Shown: positions 6,086-23,304 of the stretch, piece by piece | Position numbering within the stretch: position 1 is the stretch's first letter | Layout of the letters: each line of letters begins with the position of its first letter | Source of the DNA: Arthrobacter mangrovi | GTDB lineage: Bacteria > Actinomycetota > Actinomycetes > Actinomycetales > Micrococcaceae | Direction: 5' to 3' | Assembly: GCF_026011795.1 (NCBI RefSeq) | Contig: NZ_BRVS01000006.1 | Coordinates: 1 to 64,000, forward strand | Length of the DNA: 64,000 nt | The notes under the pieces: generated by a model | Database searches by the model: none | Told to the model about the DNA's origin: nothing | Seen by the model: only the letters and a program-made list of their open reading frames with translations | Program-made: the position numbers and the translations under genes

Positions 6086-7363
6086 TTAGACTCCAGCTTC
6101 GGCAGGCACAGCGCCCACGACTGCGCCTACTGCCGCTTCAAAGCGTGACAGGCCGGCTTCGATTTCGTTCTCGGTAGCAACGAGCGCCGGGATGAGGCGG
6201 ACGACATTGCTCTCGGGCCCGCAAGTGAGGGTTAAGAGCTTCTGTTTAGTGGTGGCCTGCTGGACAGATGCCGCCGTTGCGGCATCGGGGGACCCGTCGG
6301 CTGCAGTGAATTCGATGCCCTGCATCAGGCCGATCCCGCGAACGTCGCCGATCGCAGGGAACCTGGCCTGGATTTCCTTCAGGCCCGCCTGAAGCTGGTC
6401 ACCGCGGATCCGGGCGTTCTCGACCAGGCCTTCCTCTTCGATAACGCCGAGCGTGGCGACCCCGGCTGCGGCGGCGGCCGCGTTGCCGCCGTAGGTGCCG
6501 CCCTGGGAGCCGGGCCAGGCCTTGGACATCGTTTCGGTGGAGGCGGCGATCGCCGAGATCGGGAAACCGGAAGCGATGCCTTTGGCGGTAATAAGGATGT
6601 CGGGGGATGCGCTGGAGTGCTGGTGGCCCCAGAACCTGCCGGTGCGGCCCACGCCGGCCTGAACCTCGTCGAAGATGAGCTTGATGCCGTGCCGGTCCGC
6701 CCGTTCGCGCAGACCCTCCATGAAGGCCGGTGGGGTAGGCAGGTAGCCACCGTCGCCAAGGGCAGGCTCGATCAGGAAGGCGGCGGTATCGTTCGGTGCG
6801 GTGCGTGTCTTGAGGAGGTAGTCCAGCTCCTTCAGCGCAAATTCCACGGCAGTGGCCTCGTCCCAGCCATATCGGTAGGCGTACGGGAACGCCGACATAT
6901 GGACACCGGCCATGAGCGGGGCGTACCCGGCGGAGAATTTAGTTCCGGCGGTGGTCAAGGAAGCGGCCGCCACGGTGCGGCCATGGAACCCGCCTTGGAA
7001 GACCACAATGTTGGGCCGGCCGGTCGCCATCCTGGCAAGGCGGATCGCAGCCTCGACGGCCTCCGAGCCCGAGTTGGCGTAAAACACCGAATCCAGGCCC
7101 GCGGGCAGAACCTCCCCGAGCTTCTCCGTCAGTTCCAGCAGCGGCTTGTGCATCACCGTCGTGTATTGGGCGTGGATGATCTTGCCGACCTGCTCGCGGG
7201 CGGCGGCGACAACTTTGGGGTGGCAGTGACCGGTGCTGGTCACGCCGATGCCCGTCGTGAAGTCCAGGTACTCCTGGCCGTCCGTGGCATAGATCCAGCT
7301 GCCAAGGGCATGGTCGACGACCACGGGCGTGGCCTGCTTGAGGATAGGGCTGAGGGAAGTCAT
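6086..7363 (-). CDS. gabT: 4-aminobutyrate aminotransferase (class III, PLP)
   Basis: A 425-residue class III aminotransferase, close to the usual GabT length. Visible features: the phosphate-binding YANSGSEAVEAAIRLAR, the GGFHGRT segment, FDEVQAGVGRTGRFWGHQ with the PLP-ring aspartate, and the Schiff-base lysine in ILITAKGIASGFP. It would convert GABA and 2-oxoglutarate to succinate semialdehyde and glutamate. The ATG at 7363 is preceded by GAAGGTG six bases upstream. It is the first gene of the operon with the flavo/Fe-S oxidase and gabD. Other omega-amino acids are possible substrates. Confidence 0.87.
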   Translation of the reverse strand: MTSLSPILKQATPVVVDHALGSWIYATDGQEYLDFTTGIGVTSTGHCHPKVVAAAREQVGKIIHAQYTTVMHKPLLELTEKLGEVLPAGLDSVFYANSGSEAVEAAIRLARMATGRPNIVVFQGGFHGRTVAAASLTTAGTKFSAGYAPLMAGVHMSAFPYAYRYGWDEATAVEFALKELDYLLKTRTAPNDTAAFLIEPALGDGGYLPTPPAFMEGLRERADRHGIKLIFDEVQAGVGRTGRFWGHQHSSASPDILITAKGIASGFPISAIAASTETMSKAWPGSQGGTYGGNAAAAAAGVATLGVIEEEGLVENARIRGDQLQAGLKEIQARFPAIGDVRGIGLMQGIEFTAADGSPDAATAASVQQATTKQKLLTLTCGPESNVVRLIPALVATENEIEAGLSRFEAAVGAVVGAVPAEAGV

Positions 7364-7553
7364 TGGTCACCTTCGTCGGATCGTAATGCGACCAGCACCC
7401 TCGTGACCCGGAAACGGGTGATGGTTGAGGATGCTGGCTGCGCAAGTTGCTGCGGGACTATTTGGAAGCGACGCCTGCGGACTGCTGCTGCGGCAAAATC
7501 GGCCATGGAGTTGAGCGGCCTTGTGCAAGGTCTGTCCGCTCCCGCCACGTACG

Positions 7554-7594
7554 GAAGTGGCGCCCACACCTCGAAGGAGGTGCGGGGCCACTTC
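7554..7594 (-). terminator. Long hairpin after the HAD gene
   Basis: An 8-bp outer stem (GAAGTGGC with GCCACTTC) continues, past a one-base bulge, into further paired blocks closing on a GAAG loop. It lies 10 bases past the HAD gene stop and separates that operon from gabT. The 7364-7553 remainder should hold the gabT promoter; a small ACCCG-GAAA-CGGGT hairpin sits at 7406-7419. Confidence 0.65.
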
Positions 7595-7604
7595 GCGTCG
7601 TCGC

Positions 7605-8282
7605 TCAGTTATTCCAGAAGTCAGGCAGCGTCGAAAGATCCTGGATCTCGTGGTACGGCTGGTAGAAATCGCTGCCCTTGAACCCGTAGCGGTTCACCCA
7701 GATGCGGCGCACGCCGTACTGCTTCGCGGGCATGATGTCGTACTCCCAACCCTGCGCGACGTGGGTGACGAGGCTAGGGTCGCGATCGATCGTCTTGAAG
7801 AGGTGCTCGAAGGCACCGGGGCGGGGCTTGTACCAGCCGGCGTCCTCGGCCGTGATCACGTAGTCGAACTCGACGCCGATCGTCTTGACGTGGTGCGGGA
7901 TGAAATCGCGATCCGAATTCGAGATGATCGCCAGCTGCACGCCCTTCTCCTTGAGCTTGCGCAGCGCCTCCGGTACCTCGGGGAAGACGGGAAGCGACTT
8001 CGCCTCCTCGACGAGCTGGTCGCCGAACGCGTCCTCGTAGCGGGCGCCGTGCAGCAGCATCACGTTCTCAAGCGTCGAGCGCACGAGGTCTTGATACCTG
8101 CGGTAGGGGCCCTCGGCAACGGCCTGGAAGCGCATAACGCGGAGGTTGTCGAGGAAGGTGTCATGATCGATGCCGACCTCGTCAAGGCGCTCCTGCACTA
8201 TCGGCAACGCGAGGCGATTGAGGTCGAAGTCGATCAACGTGCGGTAGCAGTCGAAAGTCGCGATCGGGGTGTTGTTGCTCAT
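7605..8282 (-). CDS. HAD-superfamily hydrolase, 2-haloacid dehalogenase-like
   Basis: A 225-residue HAD subfamily IA protein. Motif I is FDCYRTLIDFD, with the nucleophile aspartate; the family usually has DxYGT, and here arginine replaces the glycine. Motif II is IISNSD, the lysine is in GWYKPRPGAF, and motif III is the VAQGWEYDIMPA segment. The ATG at 8282 is chosen over 8312 because GTAGGAATA precedes it. Last gene of the ABC importer/flavoenzyme operon, 42 bases after the oxidase. A dehalogenase or a phosphatase/hydrolase of a side product are both possible; the substrate is not readable. Confidence 0.7.
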   Translation of the reverse strand: MSNNTPIATFDCYRTLIDFDLNRLALPIVQERLDEVGIDHDTFLDNLRVMRFQAVAEGPYRRYQDLVRSTLENVMLLHGARYEDAFGDQLVEEAKSLPVFPEVPEALRKLKEKGVQLAIISNSDRDFIPHHVKTIGVEFDYVITAEDAGWYKPRPGAFEHLFKTIDRDPSLVTHVAQGWEYDIMPAKQYGVRRIWVNRYGFKGSDFYQPYHEIQDLSTLPDFWNN

Positions 8283-8324
8283 TATTCCTACTCTGTCGAG
8301 GTGGTGGGACATATTTAGGGAGGG

Positions 8325-9527
8325 TTACTTCTCGCCGCCGGTGGATGCGACGACGGAATTGTGGGTCGTGATGCCGCTATTGACATCGGTAATGGAGAAA
8401 ACTGGTTTCGCCGCGCTGAGGAAGCCGAGGTCGAACTTGGTGCTCCCGTCGACCACGAGATCCGCGCCGATCTCGCCGAGCGCGGGGGCGAGTTTGAAGC
8501 CGTGCCCGGAGAAGCCGCCGAGCACCACTGTGTTGCTGCGGCCGGGCGCTACTGCCATGAACTCATGCATCGAGCGGGTGTAACTCTCGATGTAGGTCTC
8601 TAGCCGCACGGGATTCGGATCAAGGGCCGGGAGAAGGTCGCGCAGGATCCAAGAGAACTTCTCAATTTCGGCTTGCGCCTCCTTGTGGCCAAACTTCCGT
8701 GGCACCGAGTCGGGGTCACCCGTCGGCAGGTGGTCGTTGAAGCCGAGCCCAAGCTTTACGAGCTTCTCGTCTGCGTTCGGGATGCCGTAGCAGTAGGAGG
8801 GGGCGACCCGCATGAAGGGTGGCAGGCCCCGCAGACTACTGTCGTCCTTGCCCGAGAACCACGCCGAGGTGAGGCGCCGCGTCACGATCCAGTCGCGAAG
8901 CTCGGGCACGAGCTTCGTGGTCCAACCGCCGCAGGCCACAAGCACCCGGTCGACATTGAGGCTCTCGCCGGATTCGAGCCGGAGGGTGACGCCGTCGGCC
9001 CGCTCGTCTACTGCGGTGACTGGTGTAAACTCGCGGGCCGTGGCTCCGGCCCGCACCGCCTGCTCGACGGCGACTGAAATGCTCCGCTCGGGCGAGATGA
9101 CACCAGCACCGGTATCCCAGATGCCAACGTCCCCGTCTGCCATCGAGAACTGCGGGAAGAGATCGCGCATTTCCTCGATGCCATAGGTCTCGTGCTCCAG
9201 GTCCCACTCCCGTGCCGCCTGGAGTGCGTGCTCGATCTGCGCATCGGTCGGAGCGCCGAGCAGCAGAGCGCCGATTTTGCGGCGCAGTTGCCGGCCGCCC
9301 GTCAGCTCCAGCTCCTCCCAGAGCTCGTCCGAGCGCTTCACGATCGGCATGTACCCCATCGTGGTGAGTTCGAGGTTCCGGAACAGGCGTCCTTCTCCAC
9401 CCGCCCCCGCGAGCGGGTGGCCGATGTAGCCGCTCTCAAAACCGTGCACCTCGACGCCGGCGCGTTTGCTGAGGCTCCACAGCACCTGTGCACCGATGGC
9501 TCCGAGGCCAACAACACCGATTTTCAT
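8325..9527 (-). CDS. FAD-dependent oxidoreductase, sarcosine oxidase/N-methyltryptophan oxidase-like
   Basis: A 400-residue DAO-family flavoprotein. The N-terminus MKIGVVGLGAIGAQVLWSL is the dinucleotide-binding fold, followed by the G.EGRLFRN segment typical of monomeric sarcosine oxidases and a C-terminal VVLGGFSGHGFKLAPALGE that carries the conserved FSGHGFK stretch. It would oxidise an N-methyl or secondary amino acid with oxygen. The ATG at 9527 is preceded by AAGGAA ten bases upstream; a longer frame adds 20 residues before the Rossmann strand. It lies in an operon with an amino acid ABC importer, so its substrate is probably what the importer brings in. Confidence 0.78.
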   Translation of the reverse strand: MKIGVVGLGAIGAQVLWSLSKRAGVEVHGFESGYIGHPLAGAGGEGRLFRNLELTTMGYMPIVKRSDELWEELELTGGRQLRRKIGALLLGAPTDAQIEHALQAAREWDLEHETYGIEEMRDLFPQFSMADGDVGIWDTGAGVISPERSISVAVEQAVRAGATAREFTPVTAVDERADGVTLRLESGESLNVDRVLVACGGWTTKLVPELRDWIVTRRLTSAWFSGKDDSSLRGLPPFMRVAPSYCYGIPNADEKLVKLGLGFNDHLPTGDPDSVPRKFGHKEAQAEIEKFSWILRDLLPALDPNPVRLETYIESYTRSMHEFMAVAPGRSNTVVLGGFSGHGFKLAPALGEIGADLVVDGSTKFDLGFLSAAKPVFSITDVNSGITTHNSVVASTGGEK

Positions 9528-9638
9528 GATTTTCTCATTCCTTGTGATTCCTTCGTCAGGGCAGCGCAAGGCTGGCACTTCACCCAATCCCGCGCGTTTC
9601 GGGGCACGCGGCTTGCCCCTGCTGGTGCCAGGCTGCGC
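9528..9638 (-). terminator. Intercistronic inverted repeat in the importer operon
   Basis: AGCGCA..CTGGCAC near 9562-9577 can pair imperfectly with GTGCCAGGCTGCGCT near 9624-9638 around a GC-rich loop. It falls between the second permease and the flavoenzyme. It could be an mRNA-processing or attenuating hairpin that sets transporter and enzyme levels apart. Confidence 0.35.
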
Positions 9639-10289
9639 TCAGCGTCCCGTCTTCAGGCGTTCCTCCACGTTCGAGGCGATGCGGGACGACGCGATGCAGA
9701 TCACCGCGTAGATAATGCCCGCGAGAGCCAGAACGTCGAAGTATTGGAACGTCATTGCGCCGATCGAAAACGCCTTGCTCGTGAGCTCGCCGACGCCGAT
9801 GGTGTAAGCGAGCGAGCTGGACTGGAACACCATGATGAGTAGCGACATCATCGGGCCGATGACCGCTCGCATCGCCTGCGGCAGCACGACGTGGAAGAAG
9901 CCCCTCGTCTGGGTGATGCCGAGGCTGGCGAACGCTTCGCGCTGCCCTGGGCCGACGTGCAAGATGCCCGCCCGGAATACCTCGCTCGAGTAGGCCGAGA
10001 GGTTGAGCCCGTGGGCAATGACCATCGTCACGAAGGCGGTGAGGGTGATGCCGCCGCTCGGGAGTCCGAAGTAGAGCAAGTAAATCACCGCGAGGAGCGG
10101 AATGCCGCGGAAAACCTCGATGAACACGATGAAGACCGTACGCATGAGGCGGTTCTGGTGAGTGCTCAGAAGGCCGAACACGAGGCCTAAGGGAAGGCCG
10201 ACCAGGGCGACGCATCCGGTGAGGGCAAGTGAGACCCCGAGGCCCTCCAAGAGGGCTGGCAGCCATTCGATCCATCGGTCGAAGATCAT
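9639..10289 (-). CDS. Amino acid ABC transporter permease (HisM/GlnP type)
   Basis: A 216-residue inner-membrane permease with about five hydrophobic segments. The EAA loop reads GILHVGPGQREAFASLGIT and is followed by VVLPQAMRAVIGPM, matching the polar amino acid family. It overlaps the other permease by 4 bp (ATGA). The pair probably forms a heterodimer, with GlnQ-type ATPase and lipoprotein encoded next to it. Confidence 0.88.
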   Translation of the reverse strand: MIFDRWIEWLPALLEGLGVSLALTGCVALVGLPLGLVFGLLSTHQNRLMRTVFIVFIEVFRGIPLLAVIYLLYFGLPSGGITLTAFVTMVIAHGLNLSAYSSEVFRAGILHVGPGQREAFASLGITQTRGFFHVVLPQAMRAVIGPMMSLLIMVFQSSSLAYTIGVGELTSKAFSIGAMTFQYFDVLALAGIIYAVICIASSRIASNVEERLKTGR

Positions 10290-13833: not shown

Positions 13834-14886
13834 TTGAAACCCCGAGTTATCGTCGTCCTGGCGAAGGACGCCCCGGTCCGCGGCGATTTTGCGCTCATCG
13901 AGGAGGTCGCTGTGCCCGTGTATGTGCGCACCGCCGAAGAACTGTGCGCTGCGCGGCGGGACGCTCGTGTGATGCTTGTATGGGACCTCGCCACGACGCT
14001 GATCCGCGATTGTGGACCGGAGGGGCTCGAATGGATTCAGACGAATAGTATCGGCGTAAATGCGGTCGCAACGCCCGAGGTTGCCGCTTCAAAGGTGCTC
14101 GTCACGAACACCCGGGGGCTCTTCGAGCAGCCCATGGCGGAGTTCGTGCTCGCAAGCATCCTGCTGCAAGCGAAAGACATGAGGCGCTCGATCGAGAACC
14201 AGCGAAGGCGGGTATGGGATCAGCGCTCCACGCTGCGGCTGCAGGGACGCAGGGCCGCCGTGATCGGTGCGGGCGGGGTGGGCGCACGCATCGCGCTGCT
14301 GCTCAGGACTGTCGGGATGGACGTCGACATCGTGGGCCGCACGCCGCGCATCGACGGCGGGGCGGTGGACGGCCGCATGCTGGGCCCGGTGCGGGGCATG
14401 GACGAACTGCCGGAACTGCTGCCGGAAATCGACGACCTCGTGCTCGCGGCACCGCTCACCGACTCGACGCGGGGCCTGATCGGCGCACGGGAGCTCGCAG
14501 TCATGCGGCCCAACGCCCATGTGGTGAACGTGGGGCGCGGGCCGCTGCTCGATGAGGATGCCCTGCTCGCAGCCCTGCAATCAGGACGCATTGGCGCCGC
14601 CACACTCGATGTCTTCGAGACCGAGCCTCTCAGGGCGGATCATCCGTTCTGGGAGATGGAGAACGTCTTTGTGTCTCCGCACCAGTCGGCGGATTTCGTG
14701 GGCTGGCAGCGCGCCGCGGTCGAGATGTTCGTGCGCAATCTTCGTCGATGGCAGCAGGGGGAGCAGCTTGAGAACGTGGTGGATCTTACGGGGTTCGTGC
14801 TCGACGTAATGAGGTGCGGCAGCACGGCGCACAGTTTCGCCACAGGTTCGGGACAGGAACGGACAATGTGCGCGGGGCAGAATTAG
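13834..14886 (+). CDS. D-2-hydroxyacid dehydrogenase (NAD-dependent) with an odd C-terminal tail
   Basis: About 350 residues of the D-isomer-specific 2-hydroxyacid dehydrogenase family. The NAD-binding fold is AAVIGAGGVGARIALLL, the catalytic arginine lies in HVVNVGRGPLLDEDAL, the glutamate in LDVFETEPL and the histidine in FVSPHQSA. It interconverts 2-hydroxy and 2-oxo acids. The TTG at 13834 follows TGGAGG by five bases; TTG at 13822 is also in frame. The family normally ends near ENVVDLTG (about 14800). The last 28 residues read through direct repeats that look like the promoter of the next gene, as if the native stop were lost at a junction. Confidence 0.75.
   Translation: MKPRVIVVLAKDAPVRGDFALIEEVAVPVYVRTAEELCAARRDARVMLVWDLATTLIRDCGPEGLEWIQTNSIGVNAVATPEVAASKVLVTNTRGLFEQPMAEFVLASILLQAKDMRRSIENQRRRVWDQRSTLRLQGRRAAVIGAGGVGARIALLLRTVGMDVDIVGRTPRIDGGAVDGRMLGPVRGMDELPELLPEIDDLVLAAPLTDSTRGLIGARELAVMRPNAHVVNVGRGPLLDEDALLAALQSGRIGAATLDVFETEPLRADHPFWEMENVFVSPHQSADFVGWQRAAVEMFVRNLRRWQQGEQLENVVDLTGFVLDVMRCGSTAHSFATGSGQERTMCAGQN
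14830..14868 (+). promoter_or_regulatory. Response-regulator box, site 1 (11-bp direct repeats)
   Basis: CACAGTTTCGC (14830), CACAGGTTCGG (14841) and GACAGGAACGG (14852) follow one another at exactly 11 bp and are followed by ACAAT. This is the spacing bound by OmpR/PhoB-type regulators. A TAGGGT that could be a -10 element is at 14884-14889, and the response regulator starts at 14996. Related sites occur at 17276 and 19469. Confidence 0.55.
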
Positions 14887-14995
14887 GGTTAAGCCAGCGC
14901 CCGGGACGTGCTGCCCCTATGTTTTCGTCGCGCAGCGAAAGCAGGCGGTCCGCCGGGATGCCGTCCGACCCGGACCCGATCCAGAGGATACCTAC

Positions 14996-15745
14996 ATGCC
15001 CGATTCCCCGCGCCAGTCCACGACCCGCGACCTGCCGCGTCTTGCGCACCCGGACGGCAGCCCGATCCGGGCGCTGGTGGTCGACGACGAGGCGAGCCTG
15101 GCGGAGCTGGTGAGCATGGGTCTCGGCATGATCGGCTGGGACGTCGTCACCGTCGGCGACGGGCAGGCGGCGGTCAACGCCGCCCGGGACTTCCGCCCGG
15201 ATGTCCTGGTCCTCGATGTGATGATGCCCGGCCTCGACGGGCTGGAGGCGCTCGAAAGGATCCGCGCGTTCGCCCCCGAGGTGCCGGCGCTTTTCCTCAC
15301 CGCGAAGGACGCGGTGCAGGACCGGATCGAGGGCCTCGCTGCGGGCGGGGACGACTACGTGACCAAGCCGTTCAGCATGGAGGAGCTCGTCCTGCGGCTG
15401 CACCGGCTGGTCCAGCGTTCGGGCGTGGCCGCCTCGGACTCGGCCGACCTGGTGGTGGGCGACCTCATCCTGAACCTCGACACCCGCGAGGTCACCCGCG
15501 GCGGCGAGGACATTTCGCTCACCTCGACCCAGTGGGAGCTGCTCCGCTACCTGATGGAGAATCCCAAGCACGTGCTGAGCAAGGCCCAGATCCTCGACAA
15601 CGTCTGGAAGTACGACTTCGGCGGCCAGGCGAACGTCGTCGAACTCTACATTTCCTACCTGCGCAAGAAGATCGACGCCGGCCGCGCGCCCATGATCCAC
15701 ACGGTCCGCGGCGTCGGCTATGTCCTGAAGCCCGCCGCGTCGTGA
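14996..15745 (+). CDS. OmpR/PhoB-family response regulator
   Basis: A 249-residue response regulator. The receiver domain has the acidic pair VVDDEAS (D30, D31), the phospho-acceptor D74 in LVLDVMMPG and the lysine in FLTAKD. The C-terminal winged helix carries LTSTQWELLRYLMENP and VELYISYLRKKID. A 20-residue N-terminal extension precedes the receiver. The stop overlaps the GTG of the kinase gene. It resembles the TrcR/PrrA group of actinobacteria. The 11-bp repeats in front of it suggest autoregulation, and the same repeats in the genes behind suggest they are its targets. Confidence 0.9.
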   Translation: MPDSPRQSTTRDLPRLAHPDGSPIRALVVDDEASLAELVSMGLGMIGWDVVTVGDGQAAVNAARDFRPDVLVLDVMMPGLDGLEALERIRAFAPEVPALFLTAKDAVQDRIEGLAAGGDDYVTKPFSMEELVLRLHRLVQRSGVAASDSADLVVGDLILNLDTREVTRGGEDISLTSTQWELLRYLMENPKHVLSKAQILDNVWKYDFGGQANVVELYISYLRKKIDAGRAPMIHTVRGVGYVLKPAAS

Positions 15746-17313
15746 GCCCCCGTACTGCCGTCCGGTCGCCGGGGCACCCGAGGGTGCGGAACCGGCACCT
15801 GCGGACCCGGCTGATCCTCGCCACGCTGGCCCTGCTGACGGCCATCTGCGTGGCGATCGGCGTCTTCAGCCACGTGGCAATGAGCAGTTACCTGACGGGG
15901 GAGATCGACGGCGGTCTGACGCACGCCGCGGGGCGGGCCGGCTTCCCGGACGGGCCGCGGCCGGGAGACATCAAACCGCCCGCCGGGGGAGTGAACCCGG
16001 AAAACGCCGCCGGCCAGCGGCCGGGCACGCTCAACGTGTTGTTCCGGGACGGACAAGTGCAGAACTCGGCTCTAGTGCAGGACGACGGCAGCACCGAGCC
16101 GCTGTCCGCGGAGGACCTGACGCTGTTGGGCTCGGTCGACCCGGCGAGCGGGCCGACGGACCTGGTCTTGTCCAGCGGACGCTACCGGGTGGTGGCGGCG
16201 GATCTGCCGGCGCAGGCCGGCCCGGAAGGCACCGTCCTGGTCACCGGGCTCTCGACGGCGGAGCGGGACAGCGCCCTGGCCTCGCTCGACATCACGATGG
16301 CGGGCCTGTCGCTGGCCGGCCTGCTGACCACCGGGCTTGTCGGCACCATCATTATCCGCCGCTCGCTGCGCCCACTGGAGGAGCTCGCCGCCGTCGCCAA
16401 TTCCGTCTCGCAGCTGCCGCTGGAGTCGGGCGAGGTGGAGGTTCCCGTGCGGGTTCCGCCGGCCGTGTCGCACCCGGGATCCGAGGTGGGGACGGTCGGG
16501 CTGGCGCTGAACAAGATGATCGACCATGTCACGAACGCCCTGCGGGCCCGGCACGCGAGCGAGACGAAGGTGCGGCAGTTCGTTGCCGACGCGAGCCACG
16601 AGCTTCGCACCCCGCTGACCGCCATCCGCGGCTACACCGAGCTGGTCCTGGACCGGGCGCAGGTCGATCCGACCGAGCGGGCCGCCCTGGAACGCGTCGA
16701 CAGCGAGTCCAAGCGCATGTCCGCGCTGGTGGAGGACCTGCTGCTGCTCGCCCGGCTGGACGAGGGGCAGCGCGGCGAGCCGACCGAGGTGGACCTGACC
16801 GAGCTGATCATCGAGGCCACCAGCGACGCCCAGGTCACGGCCCCGGACTACGAGTGGAAGCTGGAGCTGCCGGAGGACCCCGTCGTCGTTCCCGGCGTGG
16901 ACGACGAGCTGCGGCAAGTGCTGATCAACCTGCTCTCCAACGCGCACAAGCACACGCCGCCGGGGACCCGGGTGGTGACCGCGCTGCAGGTGGCCGACGG
17001 CCGGGTCTGGCTGACGGTGACCGACAACGGCCCCGGCATCGATCCGGCCTTCCTCGACACTATTTTCTCCCGGTTCAGCCGGGCGGATACGGCCCGCACC
17101 GTTCCCGCCGGAAGCACCGCAGGCAAGGGCAAGTCCGGCAGCTCGGGGCTGGGCTTGGCCATCGTCCAGGCGCTGCTCGAGGCGAACGGCGGGACCGTCA
17201 GCGTGGACAGCGAGCCCGGCTGCACCCGCTTCACCGTGGTGCTGCCGCTAGCCGTCGCGGATGATCAAACCGTTTCACAGGAGCGGCATAAGAACGGTCA
17301 ATTCCGGGCATAG
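15742..17313 (+). CDS. Sensor histidine kinase
   Basis: A 523-residue membrane kinase starting at a GTG that overlaps the regulator stop (GTGA). Membrane helix about residues 21-45, an extracellular sensor region of about 130 residues, a second helix about 178-205, HAMP, then the phospho-acceptor histidine in ASHELRTPLTAIRGY. The N box is LLSNAHKHTPPG, G1 is VTDNGPGID, and G2 is SGLGLAIV. It is the cognate partner of the preceding regulator. The C-terminus (QERHKNGQFRA) overlaps the second direct-repeat site. The signal is unknown; the operon context suggests an envelope or polymer cue. Confidence 0.9.
   Translation: MSPRTAVRSPGHPRVRNRHLRTRLILATLALLTAICVAIGVFSHVAMSSYLTGEIDGGLTHAAGRAGFPDGPRPGDIKPPAGGVNPENAAGQRPGTLNVLFRDGQVQNSALVQDDGSTEPLSAEDLTLLGSVDPASGPTDLVLSSGRYRVVAADLPAQAGPEGTVLVTGLSTAERDSALASLDITMAGLSLAGLLTTGLVGTIIIRRSLRPLEELAAVANSVSQLPLESGEVEVPVRVPPAVSHPGSEVGTVGLALNKMIDHVTNALRARHASETKVRQFVADASHELRTPLTAIRGYTELVLDRAQVDPTERAALERVDSESKRMSALVEDLLLLARLDEGQRGEPTEVDLTELIIEATSDAQVTAPDYEWKLELPEDPVVVPGVDDELRQVLINLLSNAHKHTPPGTRVVTALQVADGRVWLTVTDNGPGIDPAFLDTIFSRFSRADTARTVPAGSTAGKGKSGSSGLGLAIVQALLEANGGTVSVDSEPGCTRFTVVLPLAVADDQTVSQERHKNGQFRA
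17276..17303 (+). promoter_or_regulatory. Response-regulator box, site 2
   Basis: CACAGGAGCGG (17276-17286) is followed directly by CATAAGAACGG (17287-17297) and TCAATT. Aligned with 14841-14868 it matches in about 21 of 28 positions. A TAGGGT lies at 17311-17316, and the surface-cluster gene starts at 17336. Confidence 0.55.
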
Positions 17314-17335
17314 GGTGCCTCCGTAAAACGGAGGT

Positions 17336-18376
17336 ATGACATCCAAAAGCACCCGCCCGATGGGGCGCCTCCGCAAAACCGTCCTCGCCTCCACCCTCGC
17401 CGTGACGCTCGCCGCGGGCGGCACCGCTGCCTGGGCCATCGACCGGTTCGTGGTCGAGAAGGTCGAGATCTCCAACGTCTCCGAGTACGAGGCGAGCCGG
17501 ACGGCGGCGACATCCGCCGGCTCGGCCTCGGGCGGCTCCGCCGCCGACGATTCCGGCGTGAGTAACGCCGACACAGCTGACTCGACCGATACCGACTCTG
17601 CCGATACAGCCGCCACCGAGGAGACCCTCACGGACACCTCCTACCAGTCCGGCGGCGACAGCATCAACATCTCCACCGTGGTGACCGGCTCCGGAGCTGA
17701 GACGGTCACCTACTACGTTGCCGACGTCGTACTTTCCGATGCCACGACGCTGCGCTCCGCCTTCGCACAGGACAGCTTCGGCGAAAACATCACCGAAACC
17801 ACGTCGGGCATCGCCGAGGCCAACAACGCGCTGTTCGCCATCAACGGCGACTACTACGGCTTCCGCAGCACCGGCATCGTGATCCGCAACGGCGTGGTCT
17901 ACCGGGACGAGGCCGCGCGCGAAGGCCTCGCCTTCTACCAGGACGGCACCGTCAAGGTGTACGACGAGACCGCCACGACCGCCCAGCAGCTGGTGGACGA
18001 TGGCGTCTGGAATACCCTCTCCTTCGGCCCCGCGCTGCTGGAAGACGGCCAGATCGTCGACGGCATCGAGGACGTCGAGGTGGACACCAACTTCGGCAAC
18101 CACTCCATCCAGGGCGAACAGCCGCGCACCGCCGTCGGCGTGATCGACGAGAACCACCTAGTGTTCGTCGTCGTCGACGGCCGCGCCGAGGGCTACAGCG
18201 ACGGCGCCACCATGACCGAGCTGGCCGGCATCATGCAGGACCTCGGCGCCGAAACCGCGTACAACATCGACGGCGGCGGCTCCTCCACCATGTACTTCAA
18301 CGGCGCGCTGGTGAACAACCCGCTGGGCCGGGGCGAGGAACGCGGCACCTCCGACATCCTCTACATCGGGCAGTAG
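17336..18376 (+). CDS. Secreted phosphodiester glycosidase (NAGPA)-domain protein
   Basis: A 346-residue protein with an N-terminal membrane anchor or signal (about residues 13-35), a Ser/Thr/Asp-rich linker (about 50-95) and a NAGPA domain with the typical FAINGDYYGFRSTG, PRTAVGVI and YNIDGGGSSTMYFNG motifs. The family includes the uncovering enzyme domain and exopolysaccharide-associated proteins; it acts on sugar phosphodiesters or polymer outside the cell. First gene of the surface cluster, three bases before the glycosyltransferase. GGAGG lies directly against the ATG at 17336, so a start eight codons later is possible. Confidence 0.8.
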   Translation: MTSKSTRPMGRLRKTVLASTLAVTLAAGGTAAWAIDRFVVEKVEISNVSEYEASRTAATSAGSASGGSAADDSGVSNADTADSTDTDSADTAATEETLTDTSYQSGGDSINISTVVTGSGAETVTYYVADVVLSDATTLRSAFAQDSFGENITETTSGIAEANNALFAINGDYYGFRSTGIVIRNGVVYRDEAAREGLAFYQDGTVKVYDETATTAQQLVDDGVWNTLSFGPALLEDGQIVDGIEDVEVDTNFGNHSIQGEQPRTAVGVIDENHLVFVVVDGRAEGYSDGATMTELAGIMQDLGAETAYNIDGGGSSTMYFNGALVNNPLGRGEERGTSDILYIGQ

Positions 18377-18378
18377 CC

Positions 18379-19542
18379 ATGATCATCCTGATTCCCGCCT
18401 TCGAGCCGGACCTGAAGCTCATCACCCTCATCGCGGGCCTGCGCGCCGCGGACCGGCGGCTCGCCGTGCTGGTGGTGGACGACGGCAGCGGGCCGGACTT
18501 CGCGCCGGTGTTCGAGGCCGCGCGGTCCGCCGGGGCCACCGTCATCGGCTACCCGCGCAACCGGGGCAAGGGCCAGGCCCTGAAGACCGGCTTCGACTAC
18601 GTGGCGCGGCACCATCCGGGCCGCGGCGTGGTCTGCGCGGACAGCGACGGCCAGCACGCCATTTCGGACATCCTGCGCGTGGCGGACCGCGTGCGGGACG
18701 CCAATAACGACGGCGGCGTCCCCGGCCGGGTGCCGGACGGTTGCGTCATGGTGCTGGGGGAGCGGCGGTTCGACGGCGCCGTTCCCGCCCGGAGCCGGAT
18801 CGGCAACACGGTGACCCGGGCGCTGTTCCGGCTGGCGTCCGGCACCGCGCTGCACGACACCCAGACCGGGCTGCGCGGGTATCCGGCGGCCATGCTGCCC
18901 TGGCTGCAGAGCGTGCCCGGGGACCGCTACGAGTACGAGCTCAACCTGCTGCTCCGCGCCGGCCCGGCCGGACACCGGATCGAGAGCATCGAGATCGCCA
19001 CGATCTACCTGGCCGGCAACGAGTCCTCTCACTTCCGGCCGCTGGCCGACTCGGTCCGGATCTACCTGCCGCTGCTGAAGTTCGCGCTGTCGGGCTTCGC
19101 CGCCTTCGGGATCGACCTGGCCGCGTTCATCGTCCTCGGCCACGTCCTGGATTCGCTGCTGGCGGCGGTGGTCGGCGCGCGCATCATCAGCTCGACCGTC
19201 AACTTCCTGGTCAACCGCAACCTGGTCTTCCCCGGCGGCCGGCAGACGCGGCTTGTTGCCGCTGGTGTCAGGTACTTCGGCCTCGTCGCCGCGCTGATGG
19301 GCTGCAACTACGCGCTGATCTTTCTGCTGACGCATGCCGGCCTGCCGGCGGTCCCGGCGAAGCTGCTGACCGAGGCGCTGCTTTTCGGCGTGAGCTTCGC
19401 CCTGCAGCGGCGGTTCCTGTCCGGCAAAGCCCAGTCCGGAAAAGCTCATATGCCCGGTACTGGATCGACACAGGAACGGCATAGCAACGTCCCGGATCGT
19501 AGAAAACGAACAGCAAGGCACCACCTGGAGAACATCGCATGA
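18379..19542 (+). CDS. Glycosyltransferase family 2 fused to a GtrA-like membrane domain
   Basis: 387 residues. The GT-A fold part has VVDDGSGPDF, CADSDGQHA (the DxD-like site) and the acceptor segment DTQTGLRGY. From about residue 230 come four hydrophobic segments of the GtrA type (FGIDLAAFIVLGHVLDSLL; RYFGLVAALMGCNYALIFLL). It probably moves a lipid-linked sugar across or at the membrane. The last 40 residues (QERHSNVPDRRKRTARHH) are basic, unlike the family, and cover the third direct-repeat site. It overlaps DUF4956 by 4 bp. Confidence 0.82.
   Translation: MIILIPAFEPDLKLITLIAGLRAADRRLAVLVVDDGSGPDFAPVFEAARSAGATVIGYPRNRGKGQALKTGFDYVARHHPGRGVVCADSDGQHAISDILRVADRVRDANNDGGVPGRVPDGCVMVLGERRFDGAVPARSRIGNTVTRALFRLASGTALHDTQTGLRGYPAAMLPWLQSVPGDRYEYELNLLLRAGPAGHRIESIEIATIYLAGNESSHFRPLADSVRIYLPLLKFALSGFAAFGIDLAAFIVLGHVLDSLLAAVVGARIISSTVNFLVNRNLVFPGGRQTRLVAAGVRYFGLVAALMGCNYALIFLLTHAGLPAVPAKLLTEALLFGVSFALQRRFLSGKAQSGKAHMPGTGSTQERHSNVPDRRKRTARHHLENIA
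19469..19490 (+). promoter_or_regulatory. Response-regulator box, site 3 (inside the GT gene)
   Basis: CACAGGAACGG (19469-19479) is followed directly by CATAGCAACGT (19480-19490), the same tandem 11-mer as at 17276. It lies 49 bases before the DUF4956 start, so an internal promoter for DUF4956, VTC and possibly the beta-helix gene is likely. Confidence 0.5.
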
Positions 19543-20174
19543 ACATCCTCATCCTGATCGCAGCCGACCTGGTAGCGATTACCCTGCTCACCTTCGCCCT
19601 CTACCTGCGCCGGCACCGCCGCCGCGACCTCGCCGTCTCCTACCTCGGCATGAATGTCGGCGTCCTCGCCGTCGCCACGGCCCTGTCGGGATCCACGGCC
19701 GCCGTCGGCCTCGGCCTGGGCCTGTTCGGCGTGCTGTCCATCATCCGCCTCCGTTCCACCGAGCTGGCCCAGCACGAGGTGGCCTACTACTTCTCCGCCC
19801 TCGCCCTCGGCCTGATCGCCGGCGTCGGCAGCGACCCGCTCTGGCTCCCGCTGCTCCTCATGGGACTGATCCTCACCGTCATGTTCGTCGGTGACCACTC
19901 CCGGGTGCTGCCCGGCTACCGGCACCAGATCGTGGTGCTGGACCAGGCGATCGGCGACGAAGCGCTCCTACGGGAACGGCTCGCCCTGGTGCTCGGCGCC
20001 CGGATCCACTCCGCCACTGTGTCCGAACTGGACCTGGTGAATGACAAGACCATCGTCGAGGTCCGCTACGAAGCCGCCCGGCAGCCCGGACAGACCCGCT
20101 TCGCCGAGCACTCGCCGTTCGAGGCCCCGCAGCCGCTCCACTTGACCGATCCGGCCGCAGCGAGGGCCTCGTGA
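19539..20174 (+). CDS. DUF4956 membrane protein
   Basis: A 211-residue protein with four hydrophobic segments in the first 115 residues and a cytosolic C-terminal domain. The central FGVLSIIRLRSTELAQHEVAYYF is the DUF4956 signature. The family occurs beside VTC-domain genes, as here (GTGA overlap with the next gene), but its function is not established. It may form a membrane partner for the VTC protein. Confidence 0.85.
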   Translation: MNILILIAADLVAITLLTFALYLRRHRRRDLAVSYLGMNVGVLAVATALSGSTAAVGLGLGLFGVLSIIRLRSTELAQHEVAYYFSALALGLIAGVGSDPLWLPLLLMGLILTVMFVGDHSRVLPGYRHQIVVLDQAIGDEALLRERLALVLGARIHSATVSELDLVNDKTIVEVRYEAARQPGQTRFAEHSPFEAPQPLHLTDPAAARAS

Positions 20175-20962
20175 ACCCCGCGGCCACGATGGCGGAGGAT
20201 CTGTACGGCCGGCCCGCCATCGGACTCGACGAACTCAATGCCGCCGCCGCCCTGCAGACCAGGGTCGACCGGAAATACGTGATCGGCGAAGACGAAGCCG
20301 CGCTGGTCCTCGGCAGCTTCCACGCCGAGGTCCGCGTGCTCGAGATGCAGGGCAAGAGGTCCTTCGCCTACGACTCCGTCTACTTCGACACCCCGGACCT
20401 GGAGAGCTACCTGCTCGCGGCCTACGGGCGCCGTCGTCGCTACAAGATCCGGACCCGGACGTACGTGGACAGCCACCTCAGCTTCCTGGAAGTCAAGACC
20501 GAGGGAGCCCGCGCCGCCACCGTCAAGGAACGCATTCCCTACGGTCTCGGGGACAGCCACACCATCACCCCGGAAGGCCTGGCCTACATCAACGAAACCC
20601 TGCAGGAGACGGTGGGGAACCCGCCGTCGGACGCGCTCTCCCCGGTCCTCGAAACGGCCTACCACCGATTCACCCTGTACCTGCCTACCTCCGGCAGCCG
20701 GGCCACCATCGACGTCGGCGTCACCTGGCGCCACCCCGGCGGGCCGGCCAAGGTCCTGCACCGGGCGGTCATCCTCGAGACGAAATCCGGCTCCGCGGCG
20801 AGCGGCCTGGACCGCCACCTGTGGGCCCACGGCATCCGCCCCAGCAGGATCTCCAAGTTCGCCACAGGCATGGCCGCACTCAACCCCGAGCTGCCCGCCA
20901 ACCGCTGGCACCGCACCCTCGCCAACAGCCTGACCCTGCGGCCCCTGGCCCGCGCGAGCTGA
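20171..20962 (+). CDS. VTC-domain protein (polyphosphate polymerase-like)
   Basis: A 263-residue VTC tunnel-domain protein starting at a GTG that overlaps the DUF4956 stop. Motifs: RVDRKYVI, FAYDSVYFDTPDLESY, a basic RRRRYKIRTRTY, FLEVKTEG and ILETKSGS, giving the ring of basic and acidic residues expected of an inorganic-triphosphate/polyphosphate tunnel. Eukaryotic VTC makes polyphosphate. Bacterial VTC proteins next to DUF4956 and CotH kinases are linked to surface or spore-coat modification. A polymerase or nucleotidyl-type role is inferred, not shown. Confidence 0.85.
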   Translation: MNPAATMAEDLYGRPAIGLDELNAAAALQTRVDRKYVIGEDEAALVLGSFHAEVRVLEMQGKRSFAYDSVYFDTPDLESYLLAAYGRRRRYKIRTRTYVDSHLSFLEVKTEGARAATVKERIPYGLGDSHTITPEGLAYINETLQETVGNPPSDALSPVLETAYHRFTLYLPTSGSRATIDVGVTWRHPGGPAKVLHRAVILETKSGSAASGLDRHLWAHGIRPSRISKFATGMAALNPELPANRWHRTLANSLTLRPLARAS

Positions 20963-21057
20963 CCACTCAAGCCGATCCCCTCAGACACCTACCTCGGACG
21001 CCTGCTTCGAGCGTCCCGCTTCGAGCCACCTACCCCAAGACCTTCAAAGGAACTCCC

Positions 21058-22788
21058 ATGCCCAACTTCGCCACTTTCCGCCGGCCCAACCCCACCACTT
21101 CCGTCCGCACGAATCCGACCTCTGCCACTCCGTCCAACCCCACCTCTGCCAGCCGGCCCAACCCCGCCTCTGCCGGCCTGACTAGCTCCATCTCATCGGG
21201 CCGCAGGACCACCGGCCGTGCCGCCGCGCTGAAAACCTCGATAGCGGCCCTGGCCCTCGCCCTGTCACTGGCCAGCTGCAGCGCAGCCGCGTCCACGACG
21301 TCCACCTCAAGCAGCAACACAGCCGGGTCGGCCACCGCCGCAGCCGCCGGTACAACGCAGGATTCCACCGCCGCCGCCAGCGCCGATGCCATCACGGAGG
21401 ACACCCACTTCGACGCCGACGACCTCATCTGGGACGCCACCGACGAGGTGTCGGTGACTCTCGTCGACGCGGCCAGCACCGCAGAGGGCGACGGCGTCAC
21501 GGTCGACGGCGACACCGTCACCATCACCGCGGCCGGCACCTACCGGCTCTCCGGCAGCCTGTCCGACGGGCAGGTCGTCATCGCCGCGGGGGAGGAGGAC
21601 GTAGTGCGCGTCATCCTCGACGGCGTCGAACTCACCAGCAACACCGGTTCGCCGTTCGTGGTCAACTCCGCCAACGAAGCCCTGGTCTTCCTCGAGGACG
21701 GCAGCTCCAACAGCCTCACCGACGCCGCGACTTACTCCGACACCGGGACCGACGCGCCGAACGCCCCGCTGTATTCGATGGCGGACCTGACCATCGCCGG
21801 CACCGGCTCGCTGACGGTCAACGGCAACTCGAACAACGGCATCACCTCCAAGGACGGACTGGTCCTGGCCGACGGCAACGTCACGGTGGACGCGGCCGAT
21901 GACGGCATTGTGGGCAAGGACTACCTGGTCCTGCTCGGCGGCAGCTACAACGTCACAGCCGCCGGCGACGGCGTCAGGGCCACCAACGAGGAGGACGAAG
22001 GCCGCGGCTGGCTAACGGTCTACGGCGGCGAACTGACGGCGTCCTCCGGTGACGACGGCCTCAAAGCGGCCAACCTGCTCACCGTCAACGCCGGAACCGT
22101 GAACATCACCGAGTCGGTGGAAGGCGTCGAGGCGCAGGACATCGTCATCAACGGCGGCAGCGTGGACGTCACTTCAAGTGACGACGGCGTGAACGCGGCG
22201 GGCGGTTCCACGGCCACCACCGCGACGCAGGGCGGAGCCGGCGCTCCGATGGGCGGCCCCGGCGGAGGGGGCGGCGGTTCGATGGAAGTCGGCGACTACT
22301 CGGTCACCGTGACCGGCGGAGACCTCACCATCAACGCCCAAGGCGACGGCCTGGACTCCAACGGAAACGCCAGCATCACCGGCGGCACCGTGACCGTCAA
22401 CGGGCCCACCAGCGACGGCAACGGCGCGCTGGACGTGAACGGCGAACTGACCGTCGACGGCGGAACCCTCGCCGCCGCCGGCAGCGCAGGCATGGCGGGA
22501 ACGCCGTCGGACTCCTCGAAGCAGTCGGGCGTCCAGGTGACCTTCGGATCCGCCGTGTCCGCCGGAACGCTCATCCAGATCGTCGACGCCGACGGCAACA
22601 TCGTCGCCTCCTTCACCCCCGCCAAGGACACCGCCTCCCTCGTCTACTCCAGCGCGGACATCACCGCCGGCGACACCTACACCGTCTACACCGGCGGCAC
22701 CGAAGGCAGCACCGACGGCGCCGAAAACGCCGGCACCGTCACCGCCGGCGAATACACCCAGGAGCACTTCGGCGGCCCCGGCTTCTAG
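21058..22788 (+). CDS. Secreted Cthe_2159-like beta-helix carbohydrate-binding protein
   Basis: A 576-residue exported protein. After a Pro/Asn/Thr/Ser-rich N-terminus, a hydrophobic segment ends in a lipobox-like LSLASC. The mature part repeats short strands such as GLVLADGNVTVDAADDGI and YGGELTASSGDDGL, the ladder pattern of right-handed beta-helix Cthe_2159-type proteins. A Gly-rich linker lies at about residue 400 (GGPGGGGGG). The ATG at 21058 has AAAGGA seven bases upstream. The Cthe_2159 group binds cellulose or pectin-like polymers. In many genomes a CotH kinase takes this place beside VTC/DUF4956; here the beta-helix protein does. Confidence 0.8.
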   Translation: MPNFATFRRPNPTTSVRTNPTSATPSNPTSASRPNPASAGLTSSISSGRRTTGRAAALKTSIAALALALSLASCSAAASTTSTSSSNTAGSATAAAAGTTQDSTAAASADAITEDTHFDADDLIWDATDEVSVTLVDAASTAEGDGVTVDGDTVTITAAGTYRLSGSLSDGQVVIAAGEEDVVRVILDGVELTSNTGSPFVVNSANEALVFLEDGSSNSLTDAATYSDTGTDAPNAPLYSMADLTIAGTGSLTVNGNSNNGITSKDGLVLADGNVTVDAADDGIVGKDYLVLLGGSYNVTAAGDGVRATNEEDEGRGWLTVYGGELTASSGDDGLKAANLLTVNAGTVNITESVEGVEAQDIVINGGSVDVTSSDDGVNAAGGSTATTATQGGAGAPMGGPGGGGGGSMEVGDYSVTVTGGDLTINAQGDGLDSNGNASITGGTVTVNGPTSDGNGALDVNGELTVDGGTLAAAGSAGMAGTPSDSSKQSGVQVTFGSAVSAGTLIQIVDADGNIVASFTPAKDTASLVYSSADITAGDTYTVYTGGTEGSTDGAENAGTVTAGEYTQEHFGGPGF

Positions 22789-22809
22789 CCCACCGCCCTC
22801 GCAACGCAG

Positions 22810-22844
22810 AGGCCGCCGCCGTCCCTCAAGGACGGCGGCGGCCT
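22810..22844 (+). terminator. Terminator of the surface cluster
   Basis: A 15-bp perfect stem (AGGCCGCCGCCGTCC with its complement) around a five-base loop, 21 bases after the beta-helix gene stop. It has only TT after it, as is common in high-G+C genomes. Confidence 0.75.
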
Positions 22845-23304
22845 TGCCCGCAGCAGCTAATGGGCCGCCAGACCCTTCGCCGGATGCCCTCGAGAATACG
22901 GGCAGCGCAGCACAATGCGGTTCCAAGGAGCATTGACAGACTGGCGCCGGAGGGGCGAAATGCCGACACCTCGCGGCTGCGGCAGCAGCTGCCATGGGTC
23001 TGGGTGGCCCCGTTCCTCCTGCCTACTTGCCCGTTGGCGCTGCTGACTCTCGCCTTGGCCTACGGGCTCTTTGCCTTCGGTTTGGCCGTAACTGCATTCG
23101 GGTAGTCGGCCGTGAGTTCCGCGAAGACAACCTGCTGATGACCAAAACTGGTTGAGGGGCGCGGGGATTGACCCTACGCCCCTCAATCGAGCGGTACACG
23201 CAGCCTGTGCCGGCCACGCCCATTGTAGAAGCACTATTGCCCACTGCATATGTGCCGCTCTCGCCCGTGGGTGGGTATTGCCCAGCCAGTTCGAGGGCTG
23301 ATCC
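22845..23304. other. Intergenic stretch with one inverted repeat
   Basis: No credible gene. TTGAGGGGCG (23152-23161) pairs with CGCCCCTCAA (23177-23186) and may end the minus-strand operon whose last stop is at 23305. A forward 81-codon frame (22860-23105) ends in a hydrophobic stretch but has no ribosome site and starts next to the preceding terminator. Confidence 0.4.

Follow-up and report, generated by a model that had tools for sequence, protein, structure and literature searches.

We analysed 64,000 nucleotides of Arthrobacter mangrovi DNA (contig NZ_BRVS01000006.1, positions 1 to 64,000 of the forward strand; hereafter the window) and found, from 14996 to 22788, seven co-directional genes that encode a response regulator (RR), a histidine kinase (HK), a NAGPA-domain protein, a GT2-GtrA glycosyltransferase (GT), a DUF4956 membrane protein, a VTC-domain protein and a Cthe_2159 lipoprotein. 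This cluster is best explained as a regulated envelope system around a bacterial Vtc4-like polymerase, with polyphosphate or a phosphate-transfer product meant for the surface; we put this forward tentatively, as a reading that is quite possible if short of probable. The gene content, the neighbourhood, the fold and residues of the VTC protein and the positions of a repeat, on which the argument below is built, were computed directly.

A seven-gene cluster

The content and order of the genes, as proposed in an initial annotation of the window, were borne out by Pfam and by the coordinates of the following features.

14830..14856, + strand: direct repeats CACAG-N6-CACAG-N6-GACAG with an 11-bp period, a putative response-regulator operator upstream of the RR gene
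14996..15745, + strand: RR of the OmpR/PhoB type (Pfam Response_reg and Trans_reg_C)
15742..17313, + strand: HK with HAMP, HisKA and HATPase_c domains (Pfam), its GTG start overlapping the RR stop
17336..18376, + strand: NAGPA-domain protein with an N-terminal hydrophobic segment (Pfam NAGPA, 8.7e-41)
18379..19542, + strand: GT2 glycosyltransferase fused to a GtrA/DPMS membrane domain, with a DSD motif (Pfam GT2 and GtrA_DPMS_TM)
19469..19484, + strand: second putative operator, CACAG-N6-CATAG with one mismatch, starting 70 bp before DUF4956 and overlapping the 3' tail of the GT frame
19539..20174, + strand: DUF4956 membrane protein (Pfam, 2.7e-57)
20171..20962, + strand: VTC-domain (triphosphate tunnel) protein, Vtc4-like (Pfam VTC, 8.1e-24, profile 2-234 of 235)
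21058..22788, + strand: Cthe_2159 beta-helix lipoprotein with the lipobox LASC (Pfam Cthe_2159, 2.2e-71)
22806..22847, + strand: GC-rich hairpin, terminator-like without a T run (-42 kcal/mol, z -4.84)

Frames overlap by 4 bp at RR/HK, GT/DUF4956 and DUF4956/VTC, and the intergenic gaps measure 22 bp (HK-NAGPA), 2 bp (NAGPA-GT) and 95 bp (VTC-Cthe_2159). The HK start was taken as the GTG at 15742, and the ATG at 21058 was taken as the start of Cthe_2159, whose open frame begins at 20821. An Rfam search of the window gave zero matches. DUF4956, VTC and CotH have one match each in the genome (4.43 Mb, 52 contigs), CotH being absent from the cluster itself. The closest named relatives of the window DUF4956 are from Arthrobacter.

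Linkage across genomes

We compared the cluster with two sets of loci, 116 in total (80 + 36). The named-genome set consists of the best 80 of 291 loci found, ranked as closest DUF4956 relatives and annotated with models derived from the window's own proteins; the second holds 36 stretches from 34 of the 36 genomes with VTC in the family sample described below (the window's own excluded, G216 and G219 left out) and partly repeats species of the first. Matches within 7 kb were counted as linked, and CotH counts rest on models trimmed to the CotH domain. DUF4956 and VTC were found together in 79 of the 80 named-genome loci, the exception (L040) lying at a contig edge, and in all 36 loci of the second set. 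The initial annotation had called the two known neighbours, often with CotH, and had made its reading depend on conservation in relatives; both points agree with these counts, and the former also with the available parts of published work (PMC7112168; PMC2879425, for VTC with CotH). Recurrence in dozens of loci makes the neighbourhood more than chance.

The NAGPA and GT genes, described at the outset as additions to this core, behaved as a unit: they were present in 43/80 named-genome and 7/36 second-set loci, and neither was ever single. Cthe_2159 accompanied 41 of the 43 pairs, the remaining two loci (L040, L045) being cut by contig ends. Across the named-genome set, Cthe_2159 was linked in 50/80 loci and CotH in 32/80 (both in 5, neither in 3); the corresponding numbers for the 36 second-set loci were 12, 5, 1 and 20. 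In L107 and L118, which bear the same genus label, these five genes recur rearranged as DUF4956-VTC-Cthe_2159-NAGPA-GT, an argument for regarding them as a functional unit. Arthrobacter agilis UMCV2 has two copies, a full cassette and a DUF4956-VTC-Cthe_2159 version without NAGPA or GT nearby (L004, L007). A locus labelled Sporosarcina beigongshangi (L047; GC 65 percent) carries a full Arthrobacter-type cassette and is a likely case of contamination or mislabelling.

In a family sample of 120 genomes, VTC was found in 37, Cthe_2159 in 17 and CotH in 10; of the 17 genomes with Cthe_2159, 13 carry the gene next to VTC. VTC occurred in 20/148 genomes of a class sample and is therefore sporadic; none of the five same-genus genomes sampled had it. 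When 14 control genomes were scanned by profile for VTC, DUF4956, CotH and Cthe_2159, VTC and DUF4956 matched in the same three, Corynebacterium glutamicum, Bacteroides ihuae and Methanosarcina acetivorans; Bacillus subtilis and two of the three had a CotH match, and the third had one for Cthe_2159. Three alphaproteobacterial plasmids (two Aminobacter, one Shinella; L160, L161, L163) have DUF4956-VTC followed by a gene annotated as phytase-like on all three and Pfam-confirmed on one, and one Deinococcus plasmid has CotH-VTC-DUF4956. Beside DUF4956-VTC, the third slot is filled by genes whose families are linked to the surface or to phosphate (Cthe_2159, CotH, phytase-like). Both Aminobacter plasmids also carry a subtilase and a sigma-factor gene nearby.

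A relative from the same genus, G231, has DNA 90 percent identical to window positions 14825-18678 (L183, G231:C3:396000-415000, 6385-10207). Its RR, HK and NAGPA genes are in broken frames, the GT match is limited to the first 100 residues, and DUF4956, VTC and Cthe_2159 were not found within the 19-kb stretch around the remnant. Erosion of the other genes once the core was gone is consistent with a single system, although the broken frames may also be faults of the assembly.

A predicted polymerase and its candidate membrane partner

The VTC protein matched its profile over the full length (84.9 bits against a cut-off of 23), and its closest PDB match by sequence was yeast Vtc4. An AlphaFold2 model (predicted local distance difference test, pLDDT, 92.8) had 3g3r as its top Foldseek match (E 5e-12); further matches were to tunnel enzymes, ygiF and thiamine triphosphatase among them. 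For residue conservation we aligned 120 rows and counted over ungapped ones; alignments A1-A4 used hand-picked subsets of 47, 50, 26 and 23 rows. R94 and R96, which are profile-aligned to the Arg pair of Vtc4, were invariant in 116/116 rows; the available part of one study describes this R264/R266-type pair as essential (PMC8749416). K92, E107, K109, K119, R166, R177 and K229 were equally invariant (116/116), as were E203, a possible counterpart of Vtc4 E426, and K205 (115/115), and R121 was kept in 115/116. The initial annotation had made its reading depend on basic residues in the tunnel, and the Arg pair and the other invariant basic residues are indeed intact. PPK enzymes are already represented in the genome, by one PPK1 match and three PPK2 matches, so the VTC protein probably supplies a different pool.

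DUF4956 has five predicted helices and, in the model, a C-terminal beta-alpha-beta-beta domain. Kinship with MgtC/SapB, prompted by what we take to be MgtC features (the five-helix plus beta-alpha-beta-beta layout and a motif), was not used, as hhalign gave a probability of 5.3 against 6.6 for the reversed control, with shallow alignments. Ten DUF4956 residues (R28, D30, R70, R72, S73, T74, E75, Q78, H79 and E80) were invariant in 50/50 rows, and the positive-inside rule would place the loops on or beside which they sit in the cytosol. In the Vtc4 complex, a positively charged path leads from the tunnel exit to the membrane channel, according to the part of the structural work available (PMC9911596); by analogy, the Arg loops of DUF4956 could do the same job.

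Sugar-transfer and surface proteins

The NAGPA signature residues RTAxG, DGGGSS and VDGR were present in 26/26 aligned proteins, and the family structures 3ohg, 6pkg and 6ozd were matched. The GT motif D-S/T-D-G-Q/H was kept in 46/50. Outside the cassette, none of 29 non-window NAGPA loci showed the pairing with GT when flanks of ~1.5 kb were searched with the cassette GT model, and a Pfam scan of the seven-gene cassette and of two genes upstream of it showed no third (GT-C) transferase. Polyprenyl-phosphate sugar is itself a glycosyl phosphodiester, so that action of NAGPA on the product of its partner GT would be a natural hypothesis.

Cthe_2159 matched 4peu, which we take to be the Cthe_2159 structure, at 4.1e-54, and 22 of the 23 aligned members have a lipobox. 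The namesake protein binds cellulose and polygalacturonic acid, as the part of the source at hand reports (PMC6712302). The window genome's sole CotH match lies on another contig (G000:C7) and has a lipobox-type N-terminus; the six proteins most similar to it in the 116 loci are all cassette-linked CotH proteins (L002, L005, L099, L028, L006, L047; 48-62 percent identity). The proposal that Cthe_2159 takes the place of CotH is therefore half right: it does fill the slot after VTC, but CotH is still in the genome, on a different contig and behind the same putative operator. Among the 13 family-sample genomes in which Cthe_2159 adjoins VTC, any CotH was found in two (the window's and G170).

A putative operator shared with an unlinked gene

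The CACAG-N6-CACAG pattern was picked after inspecting upstream sequences, and permuted-word and spacer controls were therefore added. It had 74 exact matches over the 116 loci, while spacers of 3-5 and 7-11 gave at most 15. Among 30 permuted words, CACAG reached 74, GCACA 42, ACAGC 17 and CAGCA 12 with a median of 4, the high ones being mostly shifted or related words. Of 50 Micrococcaceae loci (L002-L050 and L052, including L047 and the metagenome-assembled L031), 48 have an exact repeat beginning 67-76 bp upstream of DUF4956, the exceptions being L021 and L024; an exact copy precedes DUF4956 in 0/30 other actinobacterial loci and in 10/36 second-set loci. The window copy at 19469 has one mismatch and the same spacing as in relatives. 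A repeat-family search of 14780-15000 reported none, the 5-bp units being below its minimum length.

A genome-wide count gave 12 exact repeats and, for the reversed pattern, 0. The CotH gene has one of them 51 bp upstream, a position expected by chance in about 1 in 7000 cases per 100-bp promoter (our own arithmetic). Others precede genes for an acyltransferase-like protein, a small membrane protein and a carrier/hexapeptide protein, one lies ~170 bp before a peptidase gene, some lie near a paralogue of the two-component system (contig 1), and four (C2, C4, C18, C21) have no gene assignment. Triple CACAG repeats were seen before the small membrane protein, with the paralogous two-component system close by (L176, G000:C1:295500-303000), and before the carrier/hexapeptide protein (L182, G000:C28:37000-43500). 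The shared repeat at DUF4956, the RR gene and the unlinked CotH suggests one regulon; such a regulon would extend beyond the cassette.

The regulator itself has a broader distribution. In 31 hand-picked Micrococcaceae genomes (19 with and 12 without VTC), an RR relative of at least 61 percent identity was present in 28, the window's own included; all 19 genomes with VTC had one, and so did 9 of the 12 without it. The window genome has two such copies, on C6 and C1 (75 percent). Where Cthe_2159 adjoins VTC (13 genomes), the regulator is in 5 cases encoded a long way from VTC or on a separate contig. HK and RR both lay within 7 kb in 19/36 second-set loci, of which 12 belong to a different subfamily by their low scores (L086-type; two checked further). 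A different type of regulator, short and made up of the receiver alone, was seen in several other named-genome loci (Pfam on one, L037). Repeatedly, DUF4956-VTC is accompanied by a convergent two-component system unlike that of the window (L086, L089, L093-L096, L101, L102, L119). From these positions, a widespread regulator seems to control the cassette, with a copy often carried along.

What the cluster may do

We infer the identity of the polymer, its export, the NAGPA substrate and the binding of regulator to operator from these data as follows. Cytosolic VTC would build polyphosphate, or transfer gamma-phosphates, from nucleoside triphosphates. DUF4956 would be its membrane partner, whose invariant Arg-rich loops could take the product and pass it outward, where the surface lipoproteins Cthe_2159 (beta-helix) and CotH (kinase family) may use or hold it. 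GT2-GtrA would synthesise a polyprenyl-phosphate sugar and flip it, while NAGPA might cleave or transfer at a glycosyl-phosphodiester, so that a single surface polymer would be subject to both sugar and phosphate chemistry; a phosphate-containing polymer of this kind is the presumed product of the cassette. The OmpR-type regulator would act through CACAG-N6-CACAG to turn on DUF4956-VTC-Cthe_2159, its own operon and CotH. A fuller version is unlikely as a whole: VTC and DUF4956 would form a Vtc4-type synthase-exporter that delivers polyphosphate or activated phosphate to the cell exterior, where surface proteins (CotH kinase, Cthe_2159, phytase-like) would draw on it as a donor or as a building block; in Micrococcaceae it would be coupled to a polyprenyl-phosphate-sugar branch in which NAGPA, acting on a lipid-linked sugar phosphodiester, replaces the GT-C transferase, with one regulator for all, including the unlinked CotH.

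Several observations weigh against a regulated, polymer-exporting system. Polyphosphate synthesis by the window protein is predicted from fold and residues; its 263 amino acids carry the VTC domain alone (Pfam) and thus lack the SPX and DUF202 domains present in the yeast enzyme, and other conserved-looking positions vary (R34 kept in 103, R89 in 109, R114 in 111 and R226 in 85 of 116). A sequence search gave DUF4956 no solved relative, a fold search returned chance-level matches alone (none with E up to 0.001), and the model is weak in the membrane part (pLDDT blocks 56-77), which makes export by DUF4956 a guess. Neither Cthe_2159 nor CotH lies within 7 kb in the 20 second-set loci counted above, so the lipoproteins are not obligatory neighbours. 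As to regulation, the exact repeat is upstream of RR genes of this subfamily in 3/7 (first set) and 4/5 (second set) cases and of CotH in 3/7 and 0/5, and never upstream of NAGPA or VTC. Allowing one mismatch, the window alone has 4 repeats against 4.03 in shuffles, so the evidence for the repeat is positional and comparative; moreover, the Micrococcaceae loci share descent, and 48/50 are not 48 independent events. Binding of the RR to the putative operator is suggested by their co-occurrence. The initial annotation placed a dedicated sensor and regulator in front of the cluster: the linkage holds in the window and in some relatives, but HK and RR are both within 7 kb in 6/80 named-genome loci, and the VTC-less genomes with this RR rule out a strictly dedicated regulator.

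The same genes could serve scavenging rather than building, with VTC-DUF4956, as a triphosphatase-like tunnel enzyme, turning over or sensing phosphate or polyphosphate and recovering surface-polymer phosphate while NAGPA and the lipoproteins degrade or bind glycosyl-phosphate polymers. NAGPA is a hydrolase family, Cthe_2159 is lyase-like in the available part of its description (PMC6712302), the third alphaproteobacterial gene is phytase-like and the Foldseek matches of VTC include ygiF and thiamine triphosphatase. However, by sequence and fold alike VTC is closest to polyphosphate polymerases rather than triphosphatases, enzymes of the GT2-GtrA type are synthetic and none was seen without NAGPA in the surveyed loci, and CotH is a kinase family, which leaves scavenging somewhat unlikely.

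In another reading, VTC-DUF4956 serves the phosphorylation of extracellular proteins and supplies a phosphoryl donor outside the cell for CotH-type kinases, with Cthe_2159 as substrate or scaffold and no bulk polymer. Beside VTC, CotH alternates or coexists with Cthe_2159, and the CotH of the window genome, nearest to cassette-linked CotH (48-62 percent), carries the same repeats; yet only 2/13 family-sample genomes with Cthe_2159-VTC have CotH, so that the cassette usually does without it, and we regard this explanation as distinctly unlikely. It is improbable, in turn, that the genes are accessories of biofilm or exopolysaccharide formation, like those next to Gram-positive Pel loci, and alter a polysaccharide synthesised elsewhere. 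Genes for cotH, polyphosphate polymerase and DUF4956 adjoin pel in streptococci, clostridia and bifidobacteria in the part of the survey available (PMC7112168), and one of four CotH proteins scanned (L055) has a cellulose-binding domain, but no polysaccharide synthase was found among the few neighbour genes scanned by Pfam, a weak point in that pel profiles were not searched.

Relation to known systems

A full-text literature search, with most subscription papers outside its scope, turned up DUF4956 in three papers; it did not meet DUF4956 and 'VTC domain' together, nor the combination with Cthe_2159, NAGPA, GT and repeats. The DUF4956-VTC-CotH neighbourhood is nevertheless already known, and the version with Cthe_2159, NAGPA, GT and a two-component system is a variant of it. 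In the accessible parts of two reports, a DUF4956-polyphosphate polymerase-CotH set is described beside Pel genes in Gram-positive bacteria (PMC7112168) and VTC and CotH genes in NELoc-2 of Clostridium perfringens (PMC2879425), in both cases near polysaccharide-type genes. In the window, unlike these loci, CotH is unlinked, and Cthe_2159, NAGPA, GT2-GtrA and the two-component system are added.

Bacterial polyphosphate is usually ascribed to PPK1 and PPK2 in the portions of the reviews at hand (PMC10657179, PMC8776046). If the proposed system is real, a Vtc4-like enzyme with a membrane partner would be a separate polyphosphate route, possibly an export route, in a set seen in actinobacteria, alphaproteobacteria and Deinococcus and, by profile, also in C. 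glutamicum, B. ihuae and M. acetivorans. With VTC, DUF4956 and CotH matches and no PPK1 match by profile, C. glutamicum, which is grown in laboratories, makes the question directly testable. The CACAG repeat, for its part, predicts co-working genes, including the unlinked CotH that gene order would miss.

The window proteins resemble the yeast VTC complex in the tunnel fold, the R264/R266-type Arg pair and, probably, a membrane-coupled layout, as far as the available parts of the structural papers describe it (PMC9911596, PMC8749416). They differ from it in having no SPX or DUF202, a separate DUF4956 partner and a linked two-component system. In GtrABC-type glycosylation, GT2 and GtrA make and flip the polyprenyl-phosphate sugar. 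The window has a GT2 and a GtrA part as well, whereas no GT-C transferase is among its cassette genes and NAGPA is paired with the GT instead. The window NAGPA, finally, shares the phosphodiester glycosidase signature residues of the NAGPA/uncovering enzyme family and departs from it in its N-terminal hydrophobic segment and in its place in an operon with a polyphosphate-polymerase-like protein.

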